Of a DNA stretch of 64,000 nt, positions 1,242-61,800 are shown one piece after another. The notes below the pieces were generated by a model, which saw nothing but the letters and a program-made list of their open reading frames with translations, did no database searches and was not told the DNA's origin. The DNA is taken from contig OY987244.1 in assembly GCA_963920765.1 (NCBI GenBank), positions 18,084,358 to 18,148,357 on the forward strand. Reading direction: 5' to 3'. A program made the translations under genes and the position numbers. The stretch is from Ulota crispa. Its lineage: Eukaryota > Streptophyta > Bryopsida > Orthotrichales > Orthotrichaceae. Position 1 is the stretch's first letter. Each line of letters starts with the position of its first letter.

Positions 1242-3112
1242 CCCCTAAAGGACCAAACAACGTGTTTTGGTAATGTAGTAAGTTTGGGCAAACTAGTACT
1301 TGTAAAATAATAAATAAATTTTCACATTAAAATTACAAGATGTGTGTCATGCAACAAATTTCAAACCATTCCAATTTGTAAAAAAAAAGTTATGACGGAA
1401 TATGCAACTCTACTTAACTTACTTATAGGACATGACGGGCAAAACTATTTATAGTGCAATTGAAATTTTGGATCTTGCCCAAAGGTTGAGGTGGAGAGCT
1501 ACTTCCTTGTCAAACCTTGACCCAACCTCATTCCATGAAGGCAACTCTTTTTACTTATAGCCCTTTACTTCACCTCATGTGGATGTGGCCCTATGTTGAT
1601 CAAGCTTGTCAAAGCCACAAATTTTGACCAATTTCCTTTTTCAATATTTCCCTTCTTCTAAAACTCATTAAAATCTAAAACTCCACCATTCACATTTTGA
1701 AAAGATTATTGTATGTTGAAGCCAATTTTTTTTGGAAAATGGCTTTGTATGAGAATTTCTTGAAACTAGCTTCTTATGCTAGATTTGTAGGATGTGTTCC
1801 TCAATTCCAAATGTTGTAAAAAAAATTGAGCATATAGTAAGTTCTATTGAAATCATCAGTCTAAAAAATTACAAATAAATAGTGAAATTAGCTAGTGCAA
1901 AAGCCTCCATGAATTAGAGTTGTCCAAAATTTGAATGCCCCCAAAAAAATATTATTCATCACTTCAAACCCTGTAATCTCAAAAAATTTGTAGTAAACAA
2001 CTTTCGTCATTTTACTATAGCGTAATGACTTAGTCTTATACTAGTTTCTGTAGTAAATTTTATCAAGATTTCATTTCACATTTAAAAAAAAATCTCTGCT
2101 ATCAAAATGACTCATTCTTTGTGTTTTTGGTGAAACATAGTCAAGAATTGTAGAGGTTGAATGTAGGATGACAAATTTTAAAGATAAAATAACTACATCA
2201 TTTTAATAAATTTTTGAATATTGCATCACATTGTTCTTGTAGAGAAAAACAACATGAAGTCTTCCTTAACCCCTAAAGGCCCAAGGGCCAAGGGGGTAAG
2301 AGCAAAACATAGATGTGTTATAAAATGGTACTTTTGTTAATTTGATGAAGTTTGCCTCAAGAGAAAAAATAAGAATCATAATATTTAGTAATTATCTATA
2401 TGGTCAAACATTCAAAAAAAGTTTTGGATTTTTATGTAATGAATTTAGAAGCATTTACCATTTAATATTCACCAAAATTACAAACTTTACTCATAGATTT
2501 CAAAATTTGGTGTGATTAGTTAAAAATAGACATTCTATCCAAAACTTCAAAAATGTAATTTTTTGAAAGGAGAAAACATCATTAGTTTCCCAAAATAGTA
2601 AATTTTACAACACTAGCAAATATTGAAGTGTTTGTCTTTGAAAAGTTCTCCTTGGTGGAGTTTAACTTGGATTGACATGATTCAAGTTAAGTTGGAAAGT
2701 AGACTTGATTTTCTATTACAAAAAAATGTTTTTTTGAATTTTTTTTGGTCTCAAACAGCCTAGAAAAGACAGGTAGCAACCAAAAAATGGTCAATTGAGC
2801 GCTTAGGGGTTAAGAAACTTGAAATTTTTAGGATCATGTGATTGAAATGTGGAGTTCTTTTAGGATATTTGATGTGTTGTTTTGTTATTTTGGTCCATCT
2901 TTAACAAAAATATATATAAACCTTAAGGTCATATAAACACTATTATTTGCCAACTCACGTACTTGATTCCAATGTAGTCTTTTTAGTTGGATGCAAATTT
3001 CTTGTGATTACATGTGTTCTTCAAGACCAAATTCTAAATTATTGAGCAATTTTATTTGTATGCCAAAAACTACTCTCTGCAACCAAACTATGATTGTGTG
3101 GCCTCTAAAGGG
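1242..3112. mobile_element. possible TTAA-flanked element, outer copy
   Basis: The left end reads TTAA then CCCCTAAAGGACC. The right end reads GGCCTCTAAAGGG then TTAA, roughly the inverted complement. A second element of the same type (2270-2809) sits inside. Without that insert the element would be about 1.3 kb, longer than the other copies, so the pairing of these two ends is uncertain. It is AT-rich and has no credible reading frame. Confidence 0.4.
2270..2809. mobile_element. TTAA-flanked TIR element, 540 bp
   Basis: It starts TTAA|CCCCTAAAGGCCC and ends GCGCTTAGGGG|TTAA. TTAA occurs on both sides (2266-2269 and 2810-2813). The terminal match is short, about 8 bp (CCCCTAA), so the call leans on membership of the family described at 21522. 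Confidence 0.6.
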
Positions 3113-3116
3113 TTAA

Positions 3117-3769
3117 CCCCTAAATGTGGAAGGCATCAAATTTTGGTGCCAACAATACTTTGAAGTTCAATAAAACCTAAATAAGTAGCTATAAGTTGCT
3201 ATTTGTAGTAGTTTACATTTTGAAATATTCTATTTGAAATGTAGATTCAACATCAAAAATCCAATTTTGAAAACAATTGATTATGAATTTTTTGTTTAAG
3301 ATTTTGTGCAAGGGTGTCCATTGCAATCTTGACTATTGTAGTGTTGAGAGTTCTTGGAAATGAGCCTCAAATACACTAAATCTGGAAGAAATTTTTTCAC
3401 TAGAAATTTATTTTAAAAAATTGTAAAAAAGGTTTTGAAAAACTGCAAGTTGATTGGAGTTATGTATGTTGTGTCTTTTAACCTCATATTTTTTTGGTGG
3501 CCAATTTTTTAGATTTGACATGTGAAAAGAGGATTGAAAGACTTCAAGTCATTTTCACATATTTAACACCGTCATGATCAAACATTATAATCTTTTAACC
3601 TTTAAGCAACATTGATGTGTTTTCTTTTCTTATGTGATCCCGAAATATCTAATTTGAATTTGTACGGTTGCAAAATTTAAAAATTGATACAACTTATCAA
3701 AATGTTGACTTTTTGTTCAGTTTAGAGCAAACTCCTATAAGCTCTAAAAAGGCCTTAGGCATTTAGGGG
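3117..3769. mobile_element. TTAA-flanked TIR element, 653 bp
   Basis: The left terminus is CCCCTAAATGTGGAAGGC and the inverted right terminus is CCCCTAAATGCCTAAGGC, a clear match. The left flank is TTAA (3113-3116) and the right flank is ATAA, one base off. The left TTAA is shared with the right end of the possible outer element at 1242-3112, and a Tourist-like element starts four bases after the right end. Confidence 0.65.
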
Positions 3770-7644: not shown

Positions 7645-10030
<2,386 letters not shown>

Positions 10031-10493
10031 ACCGCCGGTTTTATTATTATTTTGTCCCGCCCAAATCCACGTCAGCTGTGGCTCCACTCCGGCACATTCC
10101 TCAGGGACGATCACTGGATCGATTGATCGTCGTCTCCGAACTCGCTACAATTCTTCACATATTGCCTGCATTTAACTGTAGCCTACGTAGCTGGAGAATG
10201 TTAGGATTGACTGCAACAGTGATGTGCTTGCATTGCAGTACTGTATTGCTGTGACATGCCCGTGAACTGGGGCATTTTTTCGTGGTCTGTACTCTGAACT
10301 GTAGCACTCTGCAGCCCAGCTGCGTGTGGCGTGGCTTTCCAGATGAGTAGTTCCTTTTTCTCCGAATTATTTGCTGCCCAATGCAATGCCGCCACGTAAG
10401 TGCGAAAATGAAACATTCCTCATATCGAACTGTTTCGTCAACTTTCATGTCTTACTGTGTGTCTGTTATGGAGATCATGTGACTCAACCGTCT

Positions 10494-10790: not shown

Positions 10791-11924
10791 AGTAGTTTCA
10801 TTGCAAGCAGAAGGTGACACTTTTCCTGTATTTAACCCATTAAGGACTGGTCGACCAATTTTTGGTTGATTTTGACTCATTTCATCTTGTAGAGAGAGCA
10901 TGTCAAGGAATTTGATGATGTGGCAAAGTGGACAGGTATAGGGAATTGGAAAATGAAGAGTTTACGACAATAATCAGGCCAATATGAGGTGGCATGTGGC
11001 CAGAGGGTTGAAAAAATTAAATGAGTACCGGTTGAAAATACACCAATAACACTAGTAGAAAATCTAGCACAAAATCAACAGAATTTCAACCAAAAACTGT
11101 TGATTTTTTCTGTGAACTTGATCAAGTTGATTTGGGTACTTTTTTGTTGATTTTCTGTTGATTATTTACAGTATTTTGTTAATTTGTTGTTAATTTCTAT
11201 TACGTATTTTATGTTATTCAATTCTATTTCTTTTCATTTTTAAATTTTTTTTCATAGAATTTGTTTTTATTTTACAAAAATGTGAACTTTTTAGGGGACG
11301 GGCAACTGCCCGAGCCCCCAAGCAGCTATTGGTAATGGGGTTTGAACCCTCCACCTCTCCTCTCACACTCCATAACCTTAGCACATTTTCAAAACCACTA
11401 AAGAATGTGCAAATGCAAATGCATACATTAGTATCTTAATTCTATTTGTACATTAAATGTTCATGTCTTTAATAATCCAGTAGACTTTGGAGGCTATTTC
11501 CGCCCATTAAAGGACTTTTTTTTCAAAAAACTTAGAACTAAGAATATTTGGTAAATGTGTTTTTCTTTCACCTCCAACAATTTTTTTTGGATTTCCATCT
11601 TTTTATCAAACGTTATGAACTAAAATCAAAGAAGGTGTTTAGAAATTTTAAATAAATTGTTTATTTCCATCCTTTTGATTTTGTTTATAATTGTTTTTTG
11701 GAATTCACAAATCTCATAAGGATTGTTGCAGGCAAAGGTTGGATTCATTAATAATTATTATTTAGTGTTAGTTCTTTTGTAAAAAGAACCTTATTTTGTT
11801 AAAATAGCCTCCATAGTTTGATAGCTTCAAATAACATGAAGTCGTGAAAAGTTACGGAATTAAAACCTTGCAATTATAAAATCAAAATTCTATTGACTTT
11901 TGAATAGTTTTGGATATTTTTTAA

Positions 11925-12336
11925 GGGCATTAATATGTGAACCACACCCTTTGAACTACTGTACCACACCCGTGGGGTAAATTTTAGATTTCTACCATCA
12001 AAAATTTGAGTTTGAGAATTTTGAATTCAAATTTGGACTTAGAGACCATGGTATTGTCTAGGACCATAAAAAAGGTTGCAATTCAACAACACCCAATGAA
12101 AAAGCTTATCTTTTTTTACAAACAAAAGTAAAATTAACAATTTTCTCCCTAACTAAACTTTTTCATTGGGTGTTGTTGAATTGCAACTTTTTTTATGGTT
12201 CTAGACAATACCATGGTCTCTAAGTCCAAATCTAAACTCAAAATTTTCAAATTCAGCTTTTTGATGGTAGAAATCTAAAATTTACCTCGTGGTGTGGTAT
12301 AGTAATTAGAAGGGTGTGGTACACATATCAATTCCC
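11925..12336. mobile_element. Mutator-type foldback MITE inside CACTA copy A
   Basis: Long inverted arms meet near 12120. The arm landmark CATTGGGTGTTGTTGAATTG is mirrored as CAATTCAACAACACCCAATG. Flanking 9-mers are ATTTTTTAA and ATCTTTTAA, one mismatch. The same element sits at the same relative place in CACTA copy B, so it inserted before the two copies separated or was copied by conversion. Confidence 0.8.
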
Positions 12337-13204
12337 ATCTTTTAAAGCTTATAAAAATATTTTATAAGATTGTTTTTTTTTTAATTCATTTAGTTAGTAA
12401 TAGAAGGAAAATTACTAAAAATATCCTTTAAGTCTTTCAAAATATCAAGTTTACGCCAAAAATATGTGAAACATAAAAAGTAGTCCTTATTTTTTGTAGG
12501 AATATCAATTATACTCCTATTATTTTGGAAAATTAATAAAATAACTCTTCTATTTTGAAATGTTAAATATATCCTTGTGTTATTTGAAATGTAAAAATCA
12601 CTTTTGGTTTCTTGTAAGAATTTGCATTAAACTATACACTTGGTTATCATGTAACACAAAGATATTTTTGGTACTTTTAATCCTTAAGGGACATTTATGA
12701 TTTCTTCAAAGAATTGAGGAGCATCATTTACATTTGTTTGTAAAGAAATTTTGGTATTTAAAACAACAAAATGTTGTACTTTTTATATAAAATTTTGTTG
12801 AATTAGTGAAGTTGTGTACAAAAGTGTCCAGATCAACAGAAAACTATTAATTTTTTTGTTATTATGGTCATGTTTTTACTTGACTTTAAAGGCTGCTAAT
12901 TTTAAATCTTACCAAATTGTGAAAAGTAAAGAAAATAAAACCAGTCCATGTACACTCAAACTTCTAAGAGATTCTTTTTTTTAGAAAACTTCTTTTATTT
13001 TTTAAAACTTCAAAAAAATTTAATGAGGTCCAAAAAGATTTTAGAAAGATTTCAAAAACAAACCTAAACTATTGTGATAGTTTTTTTGAAAGTATTTTGA
13101 TGACTTACAAAAAGATTCCTAAAGGACTCTAATTCAGTCTAAGAGATTCTATTTCTATAAGTATTTTGAAGTACTTTAACAAATTCCATAAAGATTTTAA
13201 AAAG

Positions 13205-14215
13205 ATTCTCAAAGATTCCAAAAAGGTTCTTGAAAATTCTCAAAGATTTTCAAAGATTTTTTGAATTTCAAAAAAGATTCTCAAAAGATTTCCAAAGATT
13301 CCCAAAGCTTCTCAAAGCTTCCAAGAAGATTCCAAGATTAGTCATAAAGATTTTCAAAAATTCTCAAAAAAATTCAAAATTCTTAGAACATTTCCAAAGA
13401 TTCTCAAATATTCCAAACTATTCTCAAAGATTCTAAAGAATTCTCAAATCTTCCTAAAAGAGTCTCAAAGATTCCTAAAAGATTCCAAAAGATTCTCAAA
13501 GATTCCTAAAAGATTCTCAAAGATTCTCAAAGATTCTTAAAGATTCTCAATTGTTCTCAAACATTCTCAAAGATTCCAAAAAATTTGAAAAGATTTCCAA
13601 AGATTCCAAAAGATTCTCAAACATTCTCAAACATTCTCAAACATTCTCAATTGTTCTCAAACATTCTCAAAGATTCCAAAAAAACTTGAAAAGATTCCAA
13701 AAGATTCTCAAAGGTTCCAAAAAGATTCTCAAACATTCTCAATTGTTCTCAAACATTCTCAAAGATTCCAAAAAACTTGAGAAGATTCCCAAAGATTCCA
13801 AAAGATTCTCAAAGATTCCTAAAAGATTCTCAAAGATTCTCAAACATTCTCAAACATTCTCAAACATTCTCAATTGTTTTCAATTGTTCTCAAGCATTCT
13901 CAAAGATTCCAAAAAAACTTGAAAAGATTCCTAAAGATTTCCAAAGATTCTCAAAGATTCCAAAAAGATTCTCAAAGATTCTCAAAGATTCTCAAAGATT
14001 CTTAATTTTTCTCAAACATTCTCAAAGATTTCAAAAAAACTTGAAAAGAATTCCAAAGATTCCAAAAGATTCTCAAAGATTTTAAAATCTCAAAAAGATT
14101 CTTAAATATTCTTAGAAATCATGAAAAGATTCTCAATGATTTCCAAAAGATTCTTGAAGATTCTTAAAGATTCACAAAATATTCCCAAAAGATCTTCAAA
14201 AGATTCCAAAATTTT
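13205..14215. repeat. AAGATTCTC-type minisatellite in CACTA copy A
   Basis: About 1 kb consists of a degenerate tandem repeat with a 10-11 bp core (CAAAGATTCTC, CAAACATTCTC, CAAAGATTCC). It produces long open frames rich in Lys, Phe, Ser and Gln, such as 13551-13922. These are by-products of the repeat, not genes. Confidence 0.85.
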
Positions 14216-14562
14216 TGTTGATTTAGATAATGATGTCCAAATCAACAGAACGTATTTAGTTTTTTACAGAATTCTATTAAATTAGTCAATTAGCGTGGGC
14301 AAGTGCCCAAATCAACAAGAAACTGTTGGTTTTCTGTTGTTTTGGAAGGAGTTTTCTACTAGTGTAAGTGCAAAAAGATGACCATAACAACTAAAGAGTG
14401 AGCATAATTCATGATGCATAACACTAAATGTTGCAAGATACTTCCATCTGTACGGTTAGATCTCTGATAGACATATGTATTCAATAACCCTAAAATGTCC
14501 CCCAAATGGAAATATAAAGGATTACCCACCCCCAGAATTGACCATGGTCGTTAAAGGGTTAA

Positions 14563-18797: not shown

Positions 18798-20499
18798 CAA
18801 ACTCAATCGAGTTTTTTTCAATTTGAACCAACTCACATTCTCACAGTACACTAAATGTCAGTTCCCTTGGACTGTGTTGTATGTCACGTGCACAGAACAA
18901 TGTTAACAACATACTGATGTAGGGCTTGTAAAGTGTATGTTTCTTCTATTTTGGATTTTGGTAGCTTGTAAATGGAAATAATTAGAGGAGGATATGGATA
19001 GTTTACTCTACTATCACACCTACACTATGATTAGTTTTATGTTTTTAAATACCCATATCTGTTAGTGGTTTGTTTTAAATCTGGATTTATTGGTATTACA
19101 AGAAAGGTCTCACAGATATTTAGCAAGACCTCAATTAAACATACAATGTAAGGCCTCATAGATATTTATGTAACAAAGTAAGACCTCAATTAAACATACA
19201 ATATATAGCCTTATTGGCCTAGTTGTAGCAATTTCAATTGCAAAATATCATCAACAACTAAAATTTGTCAACCTAGCTAGCACTTATGGATGACCACAAA
19301 GGCCAAGTAAAGGAACAAGAAGGCCAAACATGAAATGACAAATATGATCACGTATGACCATGGTTTTTTTTTGTAAAGTTCATGAATAGTAAAACTCTAC
19401 GTGCCCTTTGATGTGAGGATAATTTTGCAAAGGACAAAAGTGCATTGACTCAAATCAAATCTAACGTAAATGCCAAAAGAAAAAAAAACCATGTGTATGA
19501 TTGCCAAAATCTCTAAATAAGTGACAACAGGACAATTTCAAGTTTGAGCTTAGAAATGGCCCTAACTCATTGAAACCCCAATAACTATCACATTTTTGAA
19601 ACTTGACACAAAACCTTGACTCAGTTACCTTTTAAATGATACAATAATCATGTCATTTGGTGTTTTAAAGTTTTTATAACTAGTTTTGAATTAAGGCCAA
19701 ATGGTAATAAAACATTCCACTTATACCTCATGTTTTTTTCTTTGGCTTTATACCATATAAAAGGAGCTTAGGCTAGATGGCATGCTGTTTTGTGGGGCCA
19801 AGGTGAACTAACCCCCACATTGCGCATCATGGTTTATTGCACAAAAGGTGAAAAACTCAATTTTTTTTCAATCAAGGTAATAGTTTATCTTGTATTTTGT
19901 TGTTGTTCAATTATATCCTTCCATGTGGTTCTAGGTAAAAGCAAAGTCCTTGAATCCAAATTTGAATTCAAATTTCCCAAATTTAATCTCATGATGGTGA
20001 ATATTTAAACTCTTACATTTTTTGACCATTGAAAAACCAAAGCTTTTTCATCCTAACCCCACATAGATTTATGGTATACTGCAAGGGAACATTGTCAATT
20101 TGATCATTTTTGTGAATTAAGACATTTTTTTGTGAATTAGGACACTTTTTTGTCAATTTGGACACATTTAGTCAATTAGGATGTGTCGATTTGGACACCA
20201 TTTCCTTGTAGTATATGTATGTGGTAAACCTCAAACCCTCATTGTCCCTTGTCTAGATGAATGGGGCCCAGAGCTTGGTCAACCATTTTATGAGTTTGTG
20301 ATGAGACTAAGGTGAAAAAGCTTTGCTCCTTCATATTTCAAAAATTGTGAAAGTTTGGAAACTTATCATTAGGAGATTGAATTTGGGAATTTTGAATTCA
20401 CATTTGGGGATTCAAAAACCTTGATTTAATTTAGATATACAGAAGAGGGTACAACTAACAAATGCCGCATAGGTGGTAAATTACTAATTTTACCCTTGT
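18798..20499. repeat. intergenic DNA with a worn Mutator-foldback relic
   Basis: Sequence at 19855-20010 (with CTTGAATCCAAATTTGAATT) is mirrored at 20330-20490 (AATTCACATTTGGGGATTCA), like the arms of the Mutator foldbacks, but no clean ends or duplication remain. A short direct repeat with CAATTAAACATACAAT lies at 19131-19202. No gene was seen. Confidence 0.5.
20075..20217. repeat. short element with spaced TTTGGACAC / GAATTAGGACA motifs
   Basis: The ends read ATACTGCAAGGGAA and, inverted, ATACTACAAGGAAA. Between them, short motifs (GTGAATTAAGACA, GTGAATTAGGACAC, TCAATTTGGACAC, TCAATTAGGA) recur about every 18-20 bp. A related block in the opposite orientation lies at about 52880-52975. Confidence 0.5.
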
Positions 20500-20503
20500 T
20501 TAA

Positions 20504-21399
20504 CCTCTAAAAGACCAAAGTCCCTTTAAGAGACTTATAGGTTTTGGGTAGGCTTGTGTGACCTTAATTTTTTACATGATTTTTTGAAACTTTTTATGAG
20601 TGTGTAGGAATGTATAAAATTTGTGGGATGCAAAAAATCATGTGACTGTGTCACATGGTTCACAAGTTATGGGTTTTTTTTGCCAAAAGCGGTTCAAGGG
20701 GTAGCGTGGGCAAGGGAAAAATTATTGACTTTGGAAGGGGGGAGCAAGGAGGGGTTGCCACATATTGTTGTGGTGGTCCCCATTATTTCGTCATTGGCCC
20801 GTTTCATTTTCATTTAGGAGGTTAGATTGGGCTTTGGGAGCTTCTAAATTTTACAGATTTTGAGTTGTTTAATTTTTGTTTTTTGACGTTTGAAGTGCAT
20901 TTTTATCTTCAAACACACATGCAAACACACCGTTTGGATTCTCCATATCTAAATACATGTGGTGGGAAACTTCACTCAAAAATGTCGTAGTGTATTTGCA
21001 AAACTTGTCATATAGTGGCATTACAATATTTTTTAGGATGTGTTTTGTGTCTTTGATTGCCTTGAAAATTGGTGTACAAAGCTCTAACTTGATTGCTTGT
21101 AAGATAAAATTACAATTTCAAGGTTTGTAGTGCAAAGAAAATCAGCAAATGGTGGTCAAAGCCATTTTAAATTTTCGGGCGTAATGGAAACGAAAAGAAA
21201 AATCTCTTCAGATGCTCATAACTTTCAATCCGTACGGTCAAATGTCACAAAATTTTCAGCGATTATTTTTCTACAAGTGCATTACAAAAGTCAATGGTTG
21301 GATTTTCAAGAACAGTATTTTATTGAAATTTTTGATGAACGCATCAATTGGGGTAGTTTTGAGTGATTTTCACAGAAATTGGTCTTGGTAGTTTAGGGG
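20504..21399. mobile_element. TTAA-flanked TIR element, 896 bp
   Basis: The left end is TTAA|CCTCTAAAAGACCAAAG. The right end, inverted, is TTAA|CCCCTAAACTACCAAGACC. TTAA lies on both sides (20500-20503 and 21400-21403). Open frames inside (for example 21130-21366) have no recognisable domain. Confidence 0.6.
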
Positions 21400-21521
21400 T
21401 TAAAAAAAAGCAAAGCTTTTATTGACCTTAACCCAAAACTATGGATGTGCAATAGACAATTCATCCAAATGGGAGGGCAATGAGGGGTCAATTCACCTCT
21501 GCCCAATTGCGTGCCATTTAA

Positions 21522-21888
21522 CCCCTAAAGGACCATGGCCTTTATTTTGTCAAAAGAAACTCAAAATTGTCACTTCTATGGCAAAGAGTAAAAAAGATTG
21601 AAAACCAGTCATTTTGCATATCTAACTATAAAATCTTGTACTAAACTACAATAAGAATGTGTCATACAAAACTCAAGTACTTTGACCACACAAATTGGAA
21701 GATATTTGCATTTAAAGTGTAAAAAACAACTTTTTTGCACCTTGCCTGACTAGATTATTTCACTTTAAACTTTTTTAACTTATAATTTTTTCTCCACAAA
21801 GTTTCAAAAAATTAAGACAAAAATTGAGGCCGTAGGTACTTGCTCAAAATCCCATTTGTCCCTCGTAGGGACAATGGTCCTTTAGGGA
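21522..21888. mobile_element. TTAA-flanked TIR element, best-preserved copy (piggyBac-like signature)
   Basis: The left terminus is CCCCTAAAGGACCATGGCC and the inverted right terminus is TCCCTAAAGGACCATTGTCC, about 17 of 19-20 matching. TTAA flanks both sides exactly (21518-21521 and 21889-21892). At 367 bp it cannot code for a transposase. Its interior is repeated, reversed and 5'-truncated, at about 52505-52835, and its right half matches the left end at 50288. TTAA target choice plus CCC-starting termini are the hallmark of piggyBac-type elements; the assignment is inference. Confidence 0.78.
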
Positions 21889-26256: not shown

Positions 26257-26823
26257 TAAAAGAATATATATGAAATATTCATTTTCCAAATTTATTAAGA
26301 TCAATGCAAGGGCAAATTCAATAACATGGATGTCATTTGTGGATCATATACTAACACTATTGTTTTAAGCTCATTGTTATACTGTTCTTCTAAATTGCAC
26401 TTAACATCTCAAACATTTAAGTGTTTTTGTGTTAGAGTTTACAACCACGTATCTGCCGCCAATAATATTACATTATAATATAAGAAATATATAATTTTTA
26501 TTAATTTTTCAAAAACCAATAATAAAACCACTCTCAATATAAAGGTATAATTGTAATTGATGTATAGTGCATGCACTAGTAGAAAATTCAGCACAAAATC
26601 AACAGAATTTCAACCAAAAACTGCTGATTTTTTCTATGAATTTGGTCAAGTTGATTTGGAAACTTTTCTGTTGATTTTCTATTGATTACTTACAGTTTTC
26701 TGTTAATTTGTTATTGATTTCTACTACGTATTTTATGTTGTTCAATTCTATTTCTTTTCATTTTTAAATTTTTTTTCATAGAATTTGTTATTATTTTACA
26801 AAAATGTGAACTTTTTAGGGGAA

Positions 26824-26920
26824 TGGGCAGCTGCCCGAACTTTTTGGGCAGCTGCCCAAACTTTTTGGGCTGCTACCCAAACTTTTTGGGCTGCTACCCG
26901 AACTCCCGGGCAGTTGCCGA
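26824..26920. repeat. 21-bp repeat with palindromic GGGCAGCTGCCC core
   Basis: About four units of GGGCAGCTGCCCAAACTTTTT with variants (GGGCTGCTACCC). Copy A has only one shortened unit at the matching place (about 11310). The open frame it creates (26785-27027) is a by-product. Confidence 0.75.
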
Positions 26921-27512
26921 CAGCGGGGTTTGAACCCTCCACCTCTCCTCTCACACTCCATAACCTTAGCACATTTTCAAAACCACTAAAGAATGTGCAA
27001 ATGCAAATGCATACATTAGTATCTTAATTCTATTTGTACATTAAATGTTCATGTCTTTAATAATCCAGTAGACTTTGGAGGCTATTTCCGCCCATTAAAG
27101 GACTTTTTTTTCAAAAAACTTAGAACTAAGAATATTTGGTAAATGTGTTTTTCTTTCACCTCCAACAATTTTTTTTGGATTTCCATCTTTTTATCAAACG
27201 TTATGAACTAAAATCAAAGAAGGTGTTTAGAAATTTTAAATAAATTGTTTATTTCCATCCTTTTGATTTTGTTTATAATTGTTTTTTGGAATTCACAAAT
27301 CTCATAAGGATTGTTGCAGGCAAAGGTTGGATTCATTAATAATTATTATTTAGTGTTAGTTCTTTTGTAAAAAGAACCTTATTTTGTTAAAATAGCCTCC
27401 ATAGTTTGATAGCTTCAAATAACATGAAGTCGTGAAAAGTTACGGAATTAAAACCTTGCAATTATAAAATCAAAATTCTATTGACTTTTGAATAGTTTTG
27501 GATATTTTTTAA

Positions 27513-27924
27513 GGGCATTAATATGTGAACCACACCCTTTGAACTACTGTACCACACCCGTGGGGTAAATTTTAGATTTCTACCATCAAAAATTTGAGTT
27601 TGAGAATTTTGAATTCAAATTTGGACTTAGAGACCATGGTATTGTCTAGGACCATAAAAAAGGTTGCAATTCAACAACACCCAATGAAAAAGCTTATCTT
27701 TTTTTACAAACAAAAGTAAAATTAACAATTTTCTCCCTAACTAAACTTTTTCATTGGGTGTTGTTGAATTGCAACTTTTTTTATGGTTCTAGACAATACC
27801 ATGGTCTCTAAGTCCAAATCTAAACTCAAAATTTTCAAATTCAGCTTTTTGATGGTAGAAATCTAAAATTTACCTCGTGGTGTGGTATAGTAATTAGAAG
27901 GGTGTGGTACACATATCAATTCCC
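27513..27924. mobile_element. Mutator-type foldback MITE inside CACTA copy B
   Basis: This is the same element, with the same flanking 9-mers (ATTTTTTAA and ATCTTTTAA), as at 11925-12336 in CACTA copy A. Confidence 0.8.
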
Positions 27925-28792
27925 ATCTTTTAAAGCTTATAAAAATATTTTATAAGATTGTTTTTTTTTTAATTCATTTAGTTAGTAATAGAAGGAAAAT
28001 TACTAAAAATATCCTTTAAGTCTTTCAAAATATCAAGTTTACGCCAAAAATATGTGAAACATAAAAAGTAGTCCTTATTTTTTGTAGGAATATCAATTAT
28101 ACTCCTATTATTTTGGAAAATTAATAAAATAACTCTTCTATTTTGAAATGTTAAATATATCCTTGTGTTATTTGAAATGTAAAAATCACTTTTGGTTTCT
28201 TGTAAGAATTTGCATTAAACTATACACTTGGTTATCATGTAACACAAAGATATTTTTGGTACTTTTAATCCTTAAGGGACATTTATGATTTCTTCAAAGA
28301 ATTGAGGAGCATCATTTACATTTGTTTGTAAAGAAATTTTGGTATTTAAAACAACAAAATGTTGTACTTTTTATATAAAATTTTGTTGAATTAGTGAAGT
28401 TGTGTACAAAAGTGTCCAGATCAACAGAAAACTATTAATTTTTTTGTTATTATGGTCATGTTTTTACTTGACTTTAAAGGCTGCTAATTTTAAATCTTAC
28501 CAAATTGTGAAAAGTAAAGAAAATAAAACCAGTCCATGTACACTCAAACTTCTAAGAGATTCTTTTTTTTAGAAAACTTCTTTTATTTTTTAAAACTTCA
28601 AAAAAATTTAATGAGGTCCAAAAAGATTTTAGAAAGATTTCAAAAACAAACCTAAACTATTGTGATAGTTTTTTTGAAAGTATTTTGATGACTTACAAAA
28701 AGATTCCTAAAGGACTCTAATTCAGTCTAAGAGATTCTATTTCTATAAGTATTTTGAAGTACTTTAACAAATTCCATAAAGATTTTAAAAAG

Positions 28793-29775
28793 ATTCTCAA
28801 AGATTCCAAAAAGGTTCTTGAAAATTCTCAAAGATTTTCAAAGATTTTTTGAATTTCAAAAAAGATTCTCAAAAGATTTCCAAAGATTCCCAAAGCTTCT
28901 CAAAGCTTCCAAGAAGATTCCAAGATTAGTCATAAAGATTTTCAAAAATTCTCAAAAAAATTCAAAATTCTTAGAACATTTCCAAAGATTCTCAAATATT
29001 CCAAACTATTCTCAAAGATTCTAAAGAATTCTCAAATCTTCCTAAAAGAGTCTCAAAGATTCCTAAAAGATTCCAAAAGATTCTCAAAGATTCCTAAAAG
29101 ATTCTCAAAGATTCTCAAAGATTCTTAAAGATTCTCAATTGTTCTCAAACATTCTCAAAGATTCCAAAAAATTTGAAAAGATTTCCAAAGATTCCAAAAG
29201 ATTCTCAAACATTCTCAAACATTCTCAAACATTCTCAATTGTTCTCAAACATTCTCAAAGATTCCAAAAAAACTTGAAAAGATTCCAAAAGATTCTCAAA
29301 GGTTCCAAAAAGATTCTCAAACATTCTCAATTGTTCTCAAACATTCTCAAAGATTCCAAAAAACTTGAGAAGATTCCCAAAGATTCCAAAAGATTCTCAA
29401 AGATTCCAAAAAGATTCTCAAAGATTCTTGAAGATTCTCAAAGATTTTGAATTGTTCTCAAACATTCTCAAAGATTCTAAAAAAATTTGAAAAGATCCCC
29501 AAAGATTCCAAAGATTCTCAAAGATTCCTAAAAGATTTCAAAGATTCTCAAAGATTCTCAAAGATTTTCTAAGATTCCAAAAAAACTTGAAAAGATTCCA
29601 AAAGATTTCCAAAGATTCATGAAGATTCCTAAAAGATTCTCCAAGATTCTAAAATCTCAAAAAGATTCTTAAATATTCTTAAAAATCAGGAAAAGATTCT
29701 CAATGATTCCCAAAAGATTCTTGAAGATTCTTAAAGATTCACAAAATATTCCCAAAAGATCTTCAGAAGATTCCA
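28793..29775. repeat. AAGATTCTC-type minisatellite in CACTA copy B
   Basis: It has the same degenerate 10-11 bp repeat as in copy A, identical up to about 29405 and then with a different unit order. Open frames at 28818-29024 and 29139-29450 are by-products of the repeat. Confidence 0.85.
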
Positions 29776-29934
29776 AAATTTCTGTTGATTTAGATAATGG
29801 TATCCAAATCAACAGAATGTATTTAGTTTTTTACAGAATTCTGTTAAATTAGTCAATTAGCGTGGGCAAGTGCTCAAATCAACAAGAAACTGTTGGTTTT
29901 CTGTTGTTTTGGAAGGAGTTTTCTACTAGTGATG

Positions 29935-31192: not shown

Positions 31193-32068
31193 CCCCTGAA
31201 GGTCTAACTGGCCCCTCGGGGGTCAAGTGGGGTTTTGGGCATGTATTTACAACTAAATTATTTTGTGTGATTTTCTGAAAATTTTATTGAAGGTGGGGAA
31301 TTCAAAAATATGTGTAGGTGTTTATTTTTTTCTTCATTTCAACATTTATTGAAGAAGTTATGCATGGATAACTAAAAGAGGGTAGAATTGGGCAGCCCAA
31401 AACAAAAGATTGCATTTAAAAAAAATAAAAATGTGAAATTGGTTCTTTAAATTTATATACATGTGGGAAGCTTTGAATCATTCAATTTTGATTAAGGAGA
31501 TGAAAGTTATGAGAATTTTTAGTTTGCGGGTAGGTATGGGACTCCCAAACCTCCGTTTCTTTTGCCCCTTATAAAAATTGGTGCTTTACTTTTTTGAGAT
31601 CTTTGTTTTTTTGTGAATTTTTATTTTCCAAGTTGTAGTAGACTAAGATTCCTTGGTTTTCACCATTTGGATCATAATAATTCAAACTTCTGAATTTTAC
31701 ATATATCCTCCAATTTTGCCTAGTGTATATGCAAATTTCATGGCCTTATGGCATTGCAAGATTTTACAAAGTATGATTCACACCTCCAATTCATTTGAAA
31801 TTTCTCCCACACATACCTAACTTGGTTTTCTACATGGGAATAAATAAACCTCAACTTTGTGTAGATTTTTTTTCTTCACTTTAGATGTCAATATCTCACT
31901 CCTCTACATGTAGAATGAGTTGATTTTTTTCCTACAAGTACCCCCATAATCTAGGGCAAGATCTTGTGGTTGGATTTCCAAAAAAGGTTTTTTTCCTACC
32001 TTTCTACTCATCCAAAAGTGACAATTTTCAGTGACTTTCACAAGAAAAAGGGCTTGGGCCTTTAGGGG
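31193..32068. mobile_element. TTAA-type TIR element, 876 bp, worn left flank
   Basis: The left end is TTCA|CCCCTGAAGGTC and the right end is GGGCCTTTAGGGG|TTAA. The subterminal sequence (CCCCTCGGGGGTCAAGTGGG) resembles that of the copies at 21888 (inverted) and 50288. The left flank differs from TTAA by one base. Confidence 0.6.
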
Positions 32069-32240: not shown

Positions 32241-33414
32241 AGGTAGGAGGCCCATATACCACCTAGGCTCTAAAACCGTCCACCCTTGCAAATGTATTCC
32301 ATTTGTACATGTTATTTTTCATAAGTTTCAACAATGTACAATACCCTTGCATATCTTTATGCCTAGCCCATTCTATCATTCAACTTAGCATTTTACACAA
32401 TAGAATTGGCAATTTTGTATTTTGCATCATTGGCCTATAATTCTTATACAATCCTAATCAAGCATACCAAATTTTGAGTTCCAAAAATCAAAATCCTATT
32501 TTCAGTGAAATATTTTAGATAAAATTCATAGTTTTACTTGACAATTGATTAAAAAAAATCGGTGATGAATTTTTGAGATTTGATTGCATGAGTATGTAGG
32601 AATCATCCGTACACATGTCTTTCCTTTGAACTAAAATCTTGAAAAAATTTCAAAATTCCTTCTACAAAGATTTTAGTGATAGACCCATCATGACCAAATT
32701 TAGTAAAATGGATATCTCCATTCTTCAATTAGTTTTTGGCAAAATAAACATATTGCTTTGCTCAAAGGTGCAAACTTAACCACATTGTATGAGTCAAATT
32801 TTAAAATCTAATTAAAAAATGGAGATATCTATTTTACTAAATTTGGTCATGATGGGCCTAACACTAAAATCTATATAGAAGGAATTTTGAAACTTTTTGA
32901 AGATTTTAGTTCAAAGGAAAGATGTGCGTACAGATGATTCCTACATATCCATGCAATCAAATCTCAAAAATTCATCACCAGTTTTTTTTTATCAATTGTC
33001 AAGTAAAACCATGAATTTTATCTAAATAATTCACCAAAAATAGGATTTTGATTTTTGGAACTCAAAATTTGGTATGCTTGATTAGGATTGTATAAGAATT
33101 ATAGGTTAATGATGCAAAATACAAAATTGCCAATTCTATTGTGTAAAATGCTAAGTTTTTGGAATGGTAAAATGGGTTGGGTGTAAAGATATGCAAGGGT
33201 ACTTTACATTTGAGGAGGGCGGTTCTAGAGCCCTATGCCACTTCAACTTCAAAATTCATAACTAATTCCACAAAGCTCCAAAACATATGAAACAACTTGA
33301 ATTAGATGCCAATTCCTCTTGTCTTTCAAGAAAAATTTACTGAAAAATATTTCAAGAAGTTTCACCTCCCCAAAATTCAGTTTCAACCCTTAGATGGTCG
33401 GTTTATGAGCCTCC
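32241..33414. mobile_element. long palindromic element, AGGTAGGAGGC left end
   Basis: Two arms of about 400 bp (about 32335-32730 and 32810-33205) are near-perfect mirror images around 32770, with landmarks GGTATGCTTGATTAGGATTG and CAAATCTCAAAAATTCATCA. The left end is TA|AGGTAGGAGGCCC; the right end retains only GCCTCC against the next element. The arms are related to the tandem palindromes at 44100-46731. Confidence 0.65.
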
Positions 33415-39716: not shown

Positions 39717-40077
39717 CCCTTAAAGGACGGATGGATCACCGGGGCTTGCCTTGCCTATAGCATTCTACAGTGTTTTGCACATGGGCACCAGAAGTATTGC
39801 TTCAAAAAGTTGGAAAAGTTAATAATGCATAGTGCCCTCATGAAAATTGTAAGAAGGGCAGCTTGGGAGCTAACACCATATTTTTGAATCTCATCACAAT
39901 TTGAGTTACAAAAAAAATGAATGCATCTCAAAAGATAAATTTCTGTCTTCCATGATGGACCATGTGTTTATGGTCGCTTTTTTAAAAAAAAAAAAATCAG
40001 ATGAAGAAAATCTTTTTTCTGAATCACAGAATCTTTTTTCAGAGCCGGAGTTTTTCGTCCTCCTCGACGTTTAGGGG
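39717..40077. mobile_element. TTAA-flanked TIR element, 361 bp
   Basis: The left end is TTAA|CCCTTAAAGGACGG. The inverted right end is TTAA|CCCCTAAACGTCGAGG. TTAA lies on both sides (39713-39716 and 40078-40081). The interior shares the run CCTCATGAAAATTG and neighbours with the copy at 46995-47375. Confidence 0.68.
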
Positions 40078-40904: not shown

Positions 40905-41095
40905 ATTACAGTTCGTTCTAGAGAACCACGGCAATGTAGGTAGGGAGTGGGAGGAGTTCAATCTAGCAATCCAGTTCTCTAGAAGATTGCATCTGCAGTT
41001 CGAGGTTGTCGCTAACCTGTGACCTTCGAGTTAGTTGTGAGCTACCGGGAACTGCTTTGAAAGGTTCAGTTGCAGGAGCACATTCAAGCTTCACC
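40905..41095 (+). promoter_or_regulatory. 5' leader of HCT copy 2, conserved with copy 1
   Basis: It shares GGCAATGTAGGTAG, GGAGGAGTTCAATCTAGCAA and TGCAGTTCGAGG in order with the leader of HCT copy 1 (7645-7801). Upstream of about 40905 the two genes are unlike. Confidence 0.6.
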
Positions 41096-46994: not shown

Positions 46995-47375
46995 CCCTTG
47001 AACGCCGGGTTGGTCACAGTGACCAACCCGGCTACAGATCTCTCTAGTGTTCAATGCACATTGGCTAGTGCTCCACAATTATAATACTCTTTTTAAAAGT
47101 TGCAAAAGTCGATGATGCATGGTGTCCTCATGAAAATTGCAAAAAAGGTAGCTTGGGAATTGACACTGTGTCTCTAAATCTTCTCATGAATCTTCTCAAG
47201 AGTTGGGTTATCTAAAGATATGAGGGCATTTAATTAGGTAACTTATTGCCTTCCATGATGGAATGTGTGTTTAAGATCACTTTTGATAAAGAATCAAATG
47301 AAAAATGGCTTAAATCTTCAATACATAAGTTTTTTTTGGAGCTGGAGGATGAAAAATGTTCTTGGCATTTTGGGA
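46995..47375. mobile_element. TTAA-flanked TIR element, 381 bp
   Basis: The left end is TTAA|CCCTTGAACGCCGGG and the inverted right end is TTAA|TCCCAAAATGCC. The flanks are TTAA at 46991-46994 and 47376-47379. A short perfect hairpin (GGGTTGGTCACAGTGACCAA) follows the left end. The interior is related to 39717-40077. Confidence 0.65.
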
Positions 47376-50287: not shown

Positions 50288-50734
50288 CCCCTCAAGGACT
50301 GTTGTCCCTTTGGGGGACAAATGGGATTTTTGGCAGGCACCTACGACCTCAATTTTTGTCTTGATTTTTTAAAACTTTTTTTGAAGATAGGAAAACACAT
50401 TAGCTTTTGTGGAATATGATTTAACTTCCAACATATGTCCGAGAGCAAAAGTTATGCCCAAATAAGCACAAATTTGGGGAGACTAGGTAGCAATTTTTTT
50501 TTACAAAAACTTGATTTTTTTCTCTCATAGGTTATAGTTTTCTCTACATCTAAAGCTTTGATTCATTTCATTTGGACTAGTTATGAGAAAGATATGAACC
50601 ATCTTGTTTTTTGGGCAATTTAAGCATCTTCTTGAAAAAATAACTTACAAACTTCATTTTTGAATGCAATTTTAACATTTTTTCAAAAACAATTGTTGGA
50701 AAGGGTGAAGTTTGCTTTCTGGAACAATCTCGCA
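50288..50734. mobile_element. TTAA-type element end, partial
   Basis: It begins CCCCTCAAGGAC after TTAAAA. Its next 70 bp closely match the inverted right end of 21522-21888 (GGGACAAATGGGATTTT, then ACCTACG and CCTCAATTTTTGTCTT). No matching right end was found before the next element, so it is probably truncated by it. Confidence 0.5.
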
Positions 50735-50738
50735 TTAA

Positions 50739-51648
50739 CCCCTAAAGTACCAAGCAAAGTTTTCACCAAAAACTCTTCAAAACTACCATTTCTAGAGCAT
50801 CAACCAAATTTGAAAACAAAAACATTTTTATGCATATGTGACTATAAGATCTTGTAGAAGAATAGTTTTAAAAGATGTAGAAAAAATTTCAGAGTTTTTC
50901 ACTACGTGGATTGGAAGTTAGAATGGTTTGAATATTCCAAAATGTCTTATGAAAAATCAGGCAGCTACCTTTTAGAAGGTGAAATTCCTAAGGAAAAAAG
51001 GCCATGTGGGTGGTGCTTCTCTAAATTCCCTATTCCACCTAAGTAAAGTACATGCCAAAAAAGTTTCAAATAATTTGGAGTTATATAACATATGGAAAAA
51101 AATTAGTAAAGAAAAAGAAGTATACAATGATTCAAACCACAAAATTATTAAGAATTTAATTGTGGAAATGAAAAATGCCAATCCCAAAGGTCATAATGTT
51201 GTCATAAACAATATTCATCCTTTGGTTGTGTTTTTTTTTCCAAAATATTGAAAATTGAGTAAAATAAAGGACTTCAAAGTTTATTTTGGAGTAGAGAGTC
51301 CATAACTGCCCACAAACAAAAAATCCTCATAACTTTCATCTCGTTGATCCAGATAGAATAATTCAAAGCTTCATACATTCACATAAATCTCCTAAACCCA
51401 TTAAATTTTTTTTGAAAGAAACGATTTCTAAAAATCTTCCTAGGCTGCTTGTCGAACGTTAAGAACAGCATATTAGGCCATAATTTTTTACTCAAAATTC
51501 CAAATGCCATGAAATTTAGTGCATATGAAAGATAATCCTTGTCCCCACATTCTGTTGAAATTTCAGCCTAAAATATGAAAAGCTTCAATCACAAGTACCT
51601 GCCCAAAATCGCTATGTTTCTAAAAAAGAGGGTCTGGTCCTTCAGGGG
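50739..51648. mobile_element. TTAA-flanked TIR element, 910 bp
   Basis: The left end is TTAA|CCCCTAAAGTACCAAGC. The inverted right end is TTAA|CCCCTGAAGGACCAGACC. TTAA lies on both sides (50735-50738 and 51649-51652). Interior frames are short and unrecognised. Confidence 0.7.
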
Positions 51649-51652
51649 TTAA

Positions 51653-52504
51653 AGGAAAAATGAGCTCAAGAGAAGGCCCCTATGGGAAGTGATTGGAGGG
51701 GTCAAAAGCATTTTAATGTAATGTCATTTTTCAAATAAAAAGAGACTAATCCCCTAGACCCGCTTACAAGTACTTCATGAGAAATATTTCTTTTTACAAT
51801 ATCATATGCTTTTAGTTTGATGAGTGTCCTTGTTTGATTGGGAATTCTAGTCCTAGTTTATTCTTGTGTCCCACTAAAGCAGGGCTTAATTTTTTTTTTG
51901 GTCAGGGTAGAGCAACCCACACCCCAAAATGCAAGCATGTAAGGAAATTTTGTCTGAAATTGGAGCAAATGAATGACATACAAAAGTTCATCCAAAAAAC
52001 TGCTAATACAAGTTACTTTCATCCAAACTTTGGCAAATTGGGATTGTCCTCTAGGAAGGATTTGGCTATTTCATCTAATTTTTCACATGGATTTCTTAGT
52101 CTAATGGTAGCCAGCAATCTTTTGAGGTAAAATTTTGGTGAAAATTTGCCAAAAATTTAAATGCTAACTGAAGGTCCTTGCATTTGTCATTGTCATGTTA
52201 TAATATTGTTTTCCATCATCAATCCTTTTGTTATGTACTATGATACACTTGAGTAGTTCACACACAAGGGAGAGACACATGTGTAGGTATCTTACCTATG
52301 CCTCTCCTACCTAAATAAAATAAGGTGGTTTGTCAAGGTTGGGAGGCCTTTTCTTGAGCTCATTTTTCCTCTAATGCTATTGGGATTATTGTGTTTCAAT
52401 TCCATTGCAGGGTTATTAACAAATTAAGTCTTTATTCAATTTCATACCTTCTTCTACCTAGTTTTTTTTAAGAATGAAATTAAGTATTATTTTTAAAATT
52501 CTTT
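51653..52504. other. intergenic DNA, no gene supported
   Basis: AT-rich, with one 98-codon open frame (51834-52130) without recognisable features. Confidence 0.45.
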
Positions 52505-52835
52505 TTGAAAGATTCTCAACTCAATTTTTGACCATAAAAATTAAAACCTCCAAACTTTGTGGTGCAAAAATTTTAAGTTAAAAATATTCAAAGTCAAATA
52601 ATCTAATCATGCAAGGTGCAAAAATTTTTTTTTTTACACTTTAAACACTAATATCTTGCAATATGTGCAGTCAAGGTTTTTGAATTATTATTTTTCACAT
52701 TTTTATACTAGTCTAGTATAAGATCCTACAATTAAATATGCAAAAAGCCCAATTTTCAAACTTTTTTACTATTTGCCATAGAAATGGCAGTTTTGAGTGT
52801 CTTTTGCCAAAATAAAGGTCTTGGTCCTTTAGGGG
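52505..52835. mobile_element. truncated TTAA-type element, reversed relative of 21522-21888
   Basis: The right end GGTCCTTTAGGGG|TTAA is intact. The preceding about 330 bp match the reverse complement of 21522-21830 (landmarks AATCTAATCATGCAAGGTGC, CATTTTTATACTAGTC, TATTTGCCATAGAAATGGCA). The other terminus is missing. Confidence 0.65.
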
Positions 52836-54333: not shown

Positions 54334-54404
54334 CCCATTAACCCCCGGAGGTCCGGAAATACACGGGAAATTGACCATATTCTGGTCGATCGGGCGTTAA
54401 TGGG
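54334..54404. mobile_element. minimal TTAA-flanked TIR element, 71 bp
   Basis: The left end is TTAA|CCCATTAACCCCCGG. The inverted right end is TTAA|CCCATTAACGCCCGATC. TTAA lies on both sides (54330-54333 and 54405-54408). It is the shortest member, little more than the two termini back to back. Confidence 0.55.
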
Positions 54405-58848: not shown

Positions 58849-61800
58849 TTAGTGGTGGACACTACGTCCTATCTGCTCAACCACTGCAGGCCGTTTGTAG
58901 CGTTTGAGCCAAAGAGAGGAGCAAACCACGGAGACGGAGGAAGCCGCCATGGCGGCACCGGCAACCCAGGGAGGCAAGCGGAAGCCCGTGCTGGGGAAGA
59001 AGACGCCGGCGGCAACAGGAATGCCCAGCACGTTGTACCCGAGCGCCCACGCGTAGTTCAGCCGGATCCTGGCGAACGTCTTGCGCGACAAGTGGATGCC
59101 CGTGATGACGTCCTCCAAGTTGCTCTTCATGAGCACGATGTCCGCCGCTTCGATGGCGATGTCCGTGCCTGCCCCAATCGCCATCCCCACGTCCGCTGCC
59201 ACCAGCGCTGGTGAGTCGTTGATGCCGTCCCCCACCATCGCCACCGACGTCCCTGATGCCTGCACGCACCCCCCCCCCCATGCAACACCAAATACTCAAT
59301 CAACCAAACACACAAAGTTCATGTCATAACAGATTTTTTTGGCTACTGGTCCCGTGCCTCACAGGATTTCAAATTTAGGCCCACACATTTGTTGAAATCC
59401 GGCTATGGTTAGCCCAGAAAAAGATGTACTTAACCCCTAAACGACCCAGTGTGCTGCTGCGGCCAAAATAGGGTATTTTTCCCATATTTAGAGGTGTTGT
59501 TGTTTTGGATTTTGCTTAGATTTTGAGGTTTGTGTATTGCTGTTTGTCTCCACCTTTTGCAATGTTCAATATGTTTCTGCAATTGTTTTTCTAACTTTGC
59601 GAAGTGTTTGTATTGGAGGTGGTCTACGAATACGTAGCTGGAGCGTATCTACGACTTACGGATCCCTGCTGTGGATCCCAAAATGAACATGCTGTCGGAG
59701 CGCCAAGAACAAGCACTCTCGTCTAGCCGCTCGGATTCACAATCCGCGTCAAGAAAAGAACAAAAATCAGATTTGTATCACCGTAGAATTACGATACAGC
59801 CAGGATTTTACGGTTCCCTGTGGTCGTTTAAGGGTTTATGTGTGGGCTCCTGGCCACAGAACCAGAGAGCATGAATCTCAGATCTATCTAGGGATTAGAT
59901 TTCCGAGCTCCGGCTACTTGAATGTCACTTTATGGCAACGTGACCATCCTGTTTTAGGTTTTGAACGCTCCACTGAACTATTGGCACTCTATTTCCACCT
60001 TAGTCCATAAACCCATATGTGCAGTATACCAAGCCCAAGGGCATAAGCACAAAACATCTTGGGGGTTTTTCTTTGAAAATTTAAAGTACCCCATAAGAAA
60101 CAAGGGTATTTTATTGGACCTTCCGTATTTTTTTAAAACATTTATATCCACACTAAAGTATACGTTTTTCTATTTTAGCATAAAGAAAAGACACCTTGTA
60201 GTATTTATATATACCCTATCATATCTCTATGCATTTTACAAATTTTAGATTCTAAAAATAAAATCCAACTTATGGTGTTTTTCACATGGTTTCTAAGGGG
60301 CAAGTCGGACTCGATACCATGTCCCGTCTCTGCAAGTCCCACCTCAATGCAAGAGCCTAGTTTCATTGTGTTATTAACCGCAAAAAAGGAGTACTAATAA
60401 AATTCATGAGTATTTGGTACAAAAACACTAACTTAATGGGATTTGGGCTAAAAGTTGGGTCAAGCAAAATGGTTGGCCCAAACATTGAGTGAAGTACCAC
60501 CTTCTTTGACGCCAAAACTTCCAAAAAGTGTTGCCATGTAAGCAAAACGCAATGAACCAAGATGTGGGACTTCTAGTGTGACGTGCCAAGTCCCAACTTT
60601 TGACTCTACACCAATCAGATTCAAAGATTTCAGTGGGACGTGGGACATAGTGTGAAGTGCTTATAAGTTTTACGCCATTGACCACTCCCTCCGGAGCAAA
60701 GGGATGGGAACGAACCTGAATCTCTTTAACGATCCGAGCCTTGTCTTCTGGCAAGGACTCAGCGTACACGGAGGGCCGGTCAATGCCCAGCTCTCGGGCA
60801 ATGGCCATGGCGGTACCCCAGTTATCGCCCGTGACCATCAGGCTGTGCACGCCCATGGACTTGAGGATGCTGATCACCTTGCTCGCCTCGGGCTTCACCG
60901 GGTCCGCAATGGCCACCACGCCCACCAGCTCCCCGTCCAGCGCCACTAGCACCCCCGTCCTCGCCAGCGTCTCCGTCTCGTGCAGGTGCTCCCGCGCTTC
61001 CTCGGACACCAGCACTCCAGCCTCCTTCATGAGCCTCGTGTTCCCCACCAGCGCTGCCTTGCCGTCCACCAGGGCCCGCACCCCTTGCCCCGGCACTGCC
61101 TCGAACTCCCGCACTTCATGCTGCTGGGCGCTCTCTCCGTTGATCCTCCTTGCGTACTCCACCACCGCTTTTGCCAGCGGATGCTCACTGTTCACCTGCA
61201 CCGCACAAAAAACGTTGCATCACCAACTCCAACAAGGCTTTAGAGCTTTGTATATGCTTGGATAAACCAAACCTAGAATGCTGCATTTAATTAAACCATG
61301 GATTATCCAAAGTCTATAAGTAAAAGTCCAAAAAATGCTTTGGTTTGCAAAACATTGGAACGTACTTGCAAAACATTGAGAAATATGTCTAAATTGGAAA
61401 ACATGCAAACTTTTGGGAAAAATGTATGCAAGTATTGGAAAATGGACATAGAAAGTCCACAGTTACATGAAACCATGTTTAGTTAAATTTGACATAAGAG
61501 CATTTTTGGAGAGAACCAAGCAACCATGCATTTGATGATTACAAAGCTTGGGACATACTATGAGATCAATAAGAAGATTACAATTCACATTGGGCTACTA
61601 AGTACCTCTTAAGCCACCAATTAATGAGTATTTAACCCTTTCATGCTCATACTCTCAGATGTACCAATGGTAGCATTTCTTGTTTTTTTTAGTGGACGAT
61701 TTGAAGGCAATGCATGGCAAACTCTAGAACAGTTTCAGCAGTTCCCACCATACCAACGGACAAGTTAGATAAGTTGTTTTTGGGCGTCAAATTTTGAGAC

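Follow-up and report, generated by a model that had tools for sequence, protein, structure and literature searches.

Short TTAA-flanked, CCC-ended elements in a land plant genome are very probably piggyBac-superfamily transposons

The window, a stretch of 64 kb (G000:C3:18084358-18148357) from an assembly of 274.8 Mb and 157 contigs, contains a BAHD acyltransferase gene (PF02458) with a long repetitive insertion at 7655-10048. A second copy of this gene, recognized by DNA match, lies about 33 kb away at 40919-43189 and shares 79-88% DNA identity with the first. The long insertion in this HCT-like BAHD enzyme and the genome size are features which we take to point to a moss. The LEAFY SAM domain was detected in the genome with six matches (best 1.2e-27), and in none of 14 control genomes; as this domain is presumably plant-specific, the genome is regarded as that of a plant. 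Long near-perfect palindromes occupy 44098-46693 and 32382-33157. Their arms of up to 387 nt are 90-97% complementary, the palindromes are related to each other, and a relative is present in the C4 locus L078. An Rfam search of the window at gathering thresholds gave no match.

Elements with CCC ends next to TTAA account for 6,320 of the 64,000 bases in the window (Table 1). All 11 starts listed in a first-pass annotation were found where stated; the four bases directly outside were TTAA in ten cases and TTCA at 31193. The same annotation had placed TTAA on both sides of most elements, which holds for seven of the 11 assigned ones, those at 3117, 31193, 50288 and 59434 being off on one side. 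Some of its pairings required revision: the start at 20504 was kept and its partner moved to 21399, and the start at 50739 was kept and now opens an element nested inside a 921-type copy.

Table 1. Elements of the window with their flanking bases and terminal inverted repeats (TIR)
Position	Strand	Element	Flanks	Remarks
2270..2809	+	540-bp element	TTAA both sides	TIR 12/16
3117..3769	+	653-bp element	TTAA left, ATAA right	TIR 13/16
10836..14558	+	lineage-1 element, ~405 bp	TTAA both sides	arms 10836-11049 and 14365-14558; split by CACTA
20504..21399	-	896-bp element, CCCCTAAAGG group	TTAA both sides	TIR 12/16
21522..21888	+	367-bp non-coding element	TTAA both sides	internal-deletion derivative of 921-bp family
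31193..32068	-	876-bp element, CCCCTAAAGG group	TTCA left, TTAA right	ends 76% and 73% to 921-bp consensus
39717..40077	+	361-bp family member	TTAA both sides	92% over 375 bp to 30-copy consensus
46995..47350	+	diverged 361-bp relative	TTAA left	47095-47349 73% to consensus
50288..52835	-	921-type element, interrupted	AAAA left, TTAA right	own sequence 50288-50731 and 52379-52835
50739..51648	+	910-bp element nested in 50288-52835		inserted in TTAA of a TIR
54334-54404		candidate element		71 bp, ambiguous starts
59434..59834	+	401-bp element	TTAA left, TTTA right	TIR 12/16

The terminus TTAA followed by CCCCTAAAGGACC was counted in 25 places of the 64-kb window at up to four mismatches, compared to 0-5 in ten Markov shuffles. 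The pattern behind this count was the 17-base terminus TTAACCCCTAAAGGACC, searched on both strands with at most four mismatches; the individual third-order Markov sequences gave 1, 1, 0, 0, 5, 3, 0, 2, 3 and 1 matches, and the comparison is flattering to the observed count because the motif was picked from the same window. The genome-wide count is independent of that choice: exact TTAACCCNTWAANGACC occurs 12,909 times, its reversed pattern not once, and the family is thus real, as had been claimed. This corresponds to about one exact MITE end per 21 kb; the window holds five exact copies, where the genome average would give 3.0. Starts specific to one family numbered 558 for the 921-bp type and 261 for the 361-bp type (reversed controls 0), both lower bounds on copy number because ends decay. 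In a blind scan of the window for inverted ends bounded by a tetramer, TTAA did not stand out, with 16 pairs against 0-54 for other tetramers; CCC ends were present in three of the 16 pairs and most of the remaining ones lay inside the long palindromes.

The boundaries proposed for the 367-bp element at 21522-21888 proved exact, with TTAA on both sides and 14 of 16 terminal bases matching between the ends. When this element was used as query, the best 40 of 5,270 candidates were scored and 30 loci, including the window copy, were taken; the right end was located in 28 of these, and L020 and L028, which lacked it, were left out. The resulting family is non-coding and belongs to the CCCCTAAAGG group. 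Its two ends differ in their subterminal sequences, named L and R, and lie 906-931 bp apart in 27 of the 28 copies, against 367 bp in the window copy. Relative to the 921-bp consensus, the window copy is 91% identical over 289 bp of the L part and 94% over 95 bp of the R part; 283 bp are left of its L side and about 90 bp of its R side, which makes it the product of an internal deletion. TTAA was present at the left of 27 and at the right of 26 of the 28 copies, and on both sides of 25. The bases beyond TTAA were at background level in these copies, and neither here nor in the 361-bp type described below do the termini extend past the four bases.

The 896-bp neighbour at 20504 matches the R end of the 921-bp consensus at 20499-20599 (75%) and the L end at 21352-21406 (79%). 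The copy at 50288-52835 follows the consensus from 7 to 472 at 84% and from 476 to 936 at 87%, with an interruption near position 473. An element with a TIR of about 30 bp, GCATTA(A/G)AGGAAAAATGAGCTCAAGA, was observed at 51649-52378, inserted in this copy.

For the 361-bp family, the best 40 of 2,989 candidates obtained with 39717-40077 were scored and 30 copies taken, 21 of which carry TTAA on both sides. The family termini CCCTTAAAGG and CCCATTAAGG themselves hold TTAA, and neighbours appear to be inserted there, which would account for some of the cases with one flank off. GGG adjoins TTAA inside the terminal CCCTTAAAGG at L041, L044, L054 and L062, four of the nine misses, and also at L051, which is among the 21; the arrangement suggests that other elements landed in the internal TTAA at these loci. 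A right end for the diverged relative at 46995 was sought and could not be placed.

The window copies being too short to code, a transposase had been expected elsewhere in the genome. It was found: 120 matches to PF13843 (DDE_Tnp_1_7), spread over contigs C1-C11 and reaching 254.5 bits (E 1.3e-73), were obtained, some genes being counted in two pieces, and coding elements of about 5.5-8 kb were delimited. At least one stop interrupts 110 of the 120 matches, in a reading which ignores introns and in which a few stops may be intronic. Locus L073 on C4 has a stop-free frame of 476 aa that matches PF13843 at 8e-60 and the solved piggyBac transposase 6X67 at 4.1e-20; D268 and D346 are aligned, and the third catalytic D is lost, with N in its place (GGVNV). 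The 363-aa frame of L070 on C7 (PF13843 3.2e-44; 6X67 1.8e-17) aligns TIDE, TLDN and GVDVADQ to D268, D346 and D447 of 6X67. All three catalytic motifs are likewise kept in the frames of L075 and L074. A Cys/His-rich stretch recognized by eye at the C-terminus of L070 was matched by no Pfam model, and the frames of L073 and L075 showed no such Cys-rich stretch. Locus L074 (G000:C1:1178709-1183995) contains a PF13843 gene at C1:1180709-1181995 in two stop-free pieces with three catalytic aspartates. Across its 5.3 kb no TTAA-CCC end of at least 14/17 was found, two weak matches of 13/17 both being without TTAA; judged from its sequence, this could be a domesticated piggyBac gene.

Eight PF13843 loci were first examined with 2-kb flanks, and a terminus of at least 16/17 was located beside the gene in L070, L073 and L075; L069, L071, L072, L074 and L076 had none within 2 kb (best for L076, 15/17). 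A genome-wide query with the left end of the C8 element (L075) gave 36 matches. Four of them (C8 itself, C5a, C5b and C6) precede a same-strand PF13843 match by 2.3-4.4 kb; the remaining 32, with no PF13843 within 12 kb, are candidate MITEs. Right ends of one type follow the domain at 1.6-1.7 kb in C6, C5b and C8 and at 1.8 kb in C4 (L073), bordered by TTAA in C6, C5b and C4 and by TCAA in C8, while a right end was looked for in C5a and none was found. The termini of these elements, here called lineage 1, read CCCATTAAGGACC and CCC(T/A)TTAAGGACC. The coding elements measure about 5.5 kb: 5,508 bp in C6, with TTAA at both ends; 5,648 bp in C8, with both ends; and, in C5b, where the left end is partly degraded, 5,420 bp from a partial left-end match. 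C4 retains an intact right end, C5a only the left one. The left end of C4 resembles the interrupted left ends of the 361-bp family; no coding element with the ends of that family was seen among the loci examined.

The right-end pattern of lineage 1 has 204 matches in the genome (reversed control 0). Among the 100 of these that were listed (61 exact, and 39 with one mismatch, the latter from C1 and C2 only), six lie 1.5-2.4 kb downstream of PF13843 in the expected orientation, compared to 0.07 expected by chance, and none lies in any other arrangement within 3 kb of the domain. Other pairings of ends enclose 6,637 bp with no PF13843 nearby, and short segments of 403, 404, 622, 630 and 630 bp. 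MITEs of roughly 403-630 bp arose from lineage 1, among them the window element 10836-14558, whose left arm is 66-67% identical over 211-212 bp to the left ends of the coding elements C8, C6 and C5a (L079, L080 and L082) and whose right end matches coding element C4 (L073) at 81% identity in 36 bp.

The CCCCTAAAGG ends were found on coding elements as well. The C7 element (L070) measures 8,025 bp (11814408-11822432) and is bordered by TTAA at either end. In comparison with the 921-bp consensus, its left end corresponds to the R end (86% identity, 57 bp) and its right end to the L end (80%, 55 bp); an 893-bp MITE matches its final 594 bp at 75% identity. MITE ends are so dense that any one of these ends, taken singly, could belong to an element lying there by chance, and a second coding copy was therefore tested. 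This copy, on C5 at 3050379, has 56% protein identity to C7. Downstream of its transposase match, at a distance of about 1.3 kb, it carries TTAA followed by CCCCTAAAGGACCGTGGCATTTTTTCTG; the terminus fits at 17/17 and shows 80% identity across 54 bp with the MITE end that the right end of C7 also matches. That the C7 ends are merely unrelated neighbouring MITEs is disfavoured by the repeated right end of the C5 copy, the search with the C7 right end being indecisive. Taken together, a second lineage with CCCCTAAAGG termini and two coding copies is likely to have founded the 921-bp family, including 21522-21888. The genome contains at least two transposase lineages. The coding relatives with such termini encode DDE_Tnp_1_7, and none with a different transposase was seen among the elements examined, which had been chosen for PF13843. 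A relative of that kind was one of three outcomes named in the first-pass annotation as refuting its reading, and in the material covered none of the three was encountered.

The superfamilies Kolobok and Sola3 also use TTAA. The CCCCTAAAGG MITEs, and with them the 21522 family, might hence derive from one of these, the piggyBac transposases merely coexisting in the same genome. The association of piggyBac with CCCCTAAAGG ends is provided by two coding copies only, and in a search with the last 500 bp of C7 (best 40 of 1,271 candidates scored) 39 of the best 40 matches had no PF13843 within 12 kb, C7 alone having it. However, the two ends of the 921-bp family are asymmetric, and both flank the PF13843 gene of C7, correctly oriented and bordered by TTAA; the right end recurs in the C5 copy, and lineage 1, which is tied to PF13843 by position, has the near-identical terminus CCC(A/T)TTAAGGACC. 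An origin from Kolobok or Sola3 is accordingly considered improbable, and the piggyBac assignment proposed at the outset is retained on account of coding elements with PF13843, matching termini and TTAA as target.

The role of TTAA was assessed with 67 elements (28 of the 921-bp type, 30 of the 361-bp type and 9 from the window), for each of which the two flanks, with a single TTAA between them, were matched against 357 kb of sequence. A spanning and hence informative match was obtained for 14 elements; 53 were uninformative. In nine of the 14 the match crossed the junction without a gap and had exactly four bases in the position of the duplication; none of the nine lacked the four bases. All ungapped matches had a single TTAA in L019 (4/4) and L025 (6/6), the best matches of L026 and L027 also had TTAA, and those of L014, L021, L036, L064 and L068 (five of nine) were one or two bases off. 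The remaining five (L016, L018, L032, L061 and w2270) were gapped near the junction or had weak flanks; the relatives of L018 and L061 contained 7 and 6 extra bases there, and those of 2270-2809 (e.g. L007) a single TTAA with gaps nearby. The single TTAA which the first-pass annotation had proposed to look for was thus seen, as TTAA or a variant one or two bases off present once, in unoccupied relatives of nine elements. The window additionally offers a built-in empty site: 50739-51648 lies in a GCA-TTAA-AGGAAAAATGAGCTC arm, and the opposite arm, GCA-TTAG-AGGAAAAATGAGCTC, is without insert. No TTAA empty site was obtained for the 50288-52835 copy at consensus position 473, because the outer insertion is another TIR element. 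What the unoccupied sites establish is TTAA as the target; they do not show how the cut is made, since a TA duplication with a strict preference for TTAA would look identical in sequence.

These data also bear on the families to which TTAA-flanked plant MITEs might first be referred. TTA, TAA and TA are all contained in TTAA, and Tourist and Stowaway MITEs appear as plant families in the available part of a published list (PMC10004981), so that Tourist-like PIF/Harbinger elements with a 3-bp TTA or TAA duplication, or mariner-type elements with TA, might be invoked. Yet all four bases are near-fixed in the 921-type copies (left 27/28, right 26/28), and the coding relatives with such termini carry PF13843, which renders this origin very improbable. 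That TTAA forms a conserved portion of the terminal repeat and is not target DNA, as its presence outside nearly every end might suggest, is practically dismissed by the single 4-mer in nine of 14 informative unoccupied relatives (TTAA in L019 4/4 and L025 6/6) and by the single TTAG in the TIR arm opposite the 50739 insertion.

We conclude with high confidence that the window elements are piggyBac-superfamily DNA transposons, mostly short non-coding MITEs, in a land plant. The evidence consists of the TTAA boundaries, the single TTAA or a variant differing in one or two bases at unoccupied relatives, the PF13843 genes and the termini shared by coding and non-coding elements. The MITEs would be moved in trans by piggyBac-type DDD transposases from the longer elements. 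By analogy with T. ni piggyBac, we infer that the transposase would bind the ends common to long and short elements, that cutting at TTAA would leave TTAA overhangs, and that insertion would occur into a new TTAA, with excision restoring the site; any present-day activity is likewise a matter of analogy. The best-matching copies agree with their consensus at 93-95% (921- and 361-bp families) and most transposase matches are broken, indicating that transposition is probably largely past.

Genome engineering makes wide use of piggyBac, a transposon whose best-known hosts are animals. The elements described here share PF13843, the TTAA target and the CCC termini with T. ni piggyBac (6X67/6X68) and the Myotis piggyBat (9C0F); D268, D346 and D447 of 6X67 are aligned in L070, and the protein match is distant. 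They differ from T. ni piggyBac in their plant host and in their length of about 5.5-8 kb, versus 2,472 bp according to the accessible part of PMC10803768. In the portions available, the published record describes TTAA-specific integration and footprint-free excision for T. ni piggyBac (PMC7351741; PMC8086355) and lists CCCTT and CCCAT among piggyBac end motifs (PMC10813416). Short non-coding MITEs of two coral genomes, an animal host, were discussed together with piggyBac and TTAA (PMC2872659; 'piggyBac' 57 times and 'TTAA' 13 times in the accessible text) and are likened to the present ones by description.

The first-pass annotation had regarded piggyBac as unusual in plants, which needs qualification. 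In the excerpts available, plants are named among the hosts of piggyBac-like elements (PMC8086355), PiggyBac is tabulated in all taxonomic groups studied (PMC4438587), and the same superfamily name is applied in land plants to 1,230 copies (122,417 bp) in the fern Ceratopteris (PMC6890710) and in a list of angiosperm MITE superfamilies (PMC10004981). The record found, as far as these excerpts extend, consists of lists and repeat-annotation tables; compared to the fern and angiosperm annotations, transposase genes, termini, flanks, empty sites and 12,909 exact termini are available here. The accessible text of a paper on a moss genome uses the word in no other form than 'piggybacking' (PMC10619864). 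The literature covered, seen partly in excerpts and with the survey by Bouallegue et al. outside its scope, yielded no description of coding piggyBac elements together with MITEs in a bryophyte. Our data support an abundant addition to the piggyBac elements already known in plants, and no first is claimed. A more far-reaching reading is offered tentatively and seems to us somewhat less likely than its contrary: in this land plant, which is probably a moss, piggyBac would have undergone an unreported multi-lineage radiation with MITEs in the thousands, and the gene at C1:1180709-1181995 may be a domesticated one.

This one land plant combines non-coding families with coding relatives that have matching termini and with built-in empty sites, which strengthens a plant piggyBac record that has so far, in the literature found and the parts of it available, comprised lists and annotation tables. 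The genome provides a tractable case for the entry and multiplication of piggyBac in plants, whether by vertical descent or by horizontal transfer. It also cautions against classing a TTAA-flanked plant MITE as Tourist by default.

The element starting at 10836 was annotated with the correct start; its right end is at 14558, the element of about 405 bp being split by a CACTA insertion. Its 3.3-kb interior was considered as a part of the element itself, and as a tandem duplication shared with 26573-29931. Both were rejected: the two sequences have the same CACTA...TAGTG ends and 3-bp repeats (TAA and ATG, respectively), which identify the interior as an inserted CACTA element. The CACTA-type copies at about 11050-14364 and 26573-29931 are 97.7% identical over 3,030 bp and end in CACTAGTAG...CTACTAGTG, with 3-bp duplications of TAA around the 11050 copy and ATG around the 26573 copy. 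Both contain an array of diverged tandem repeats.
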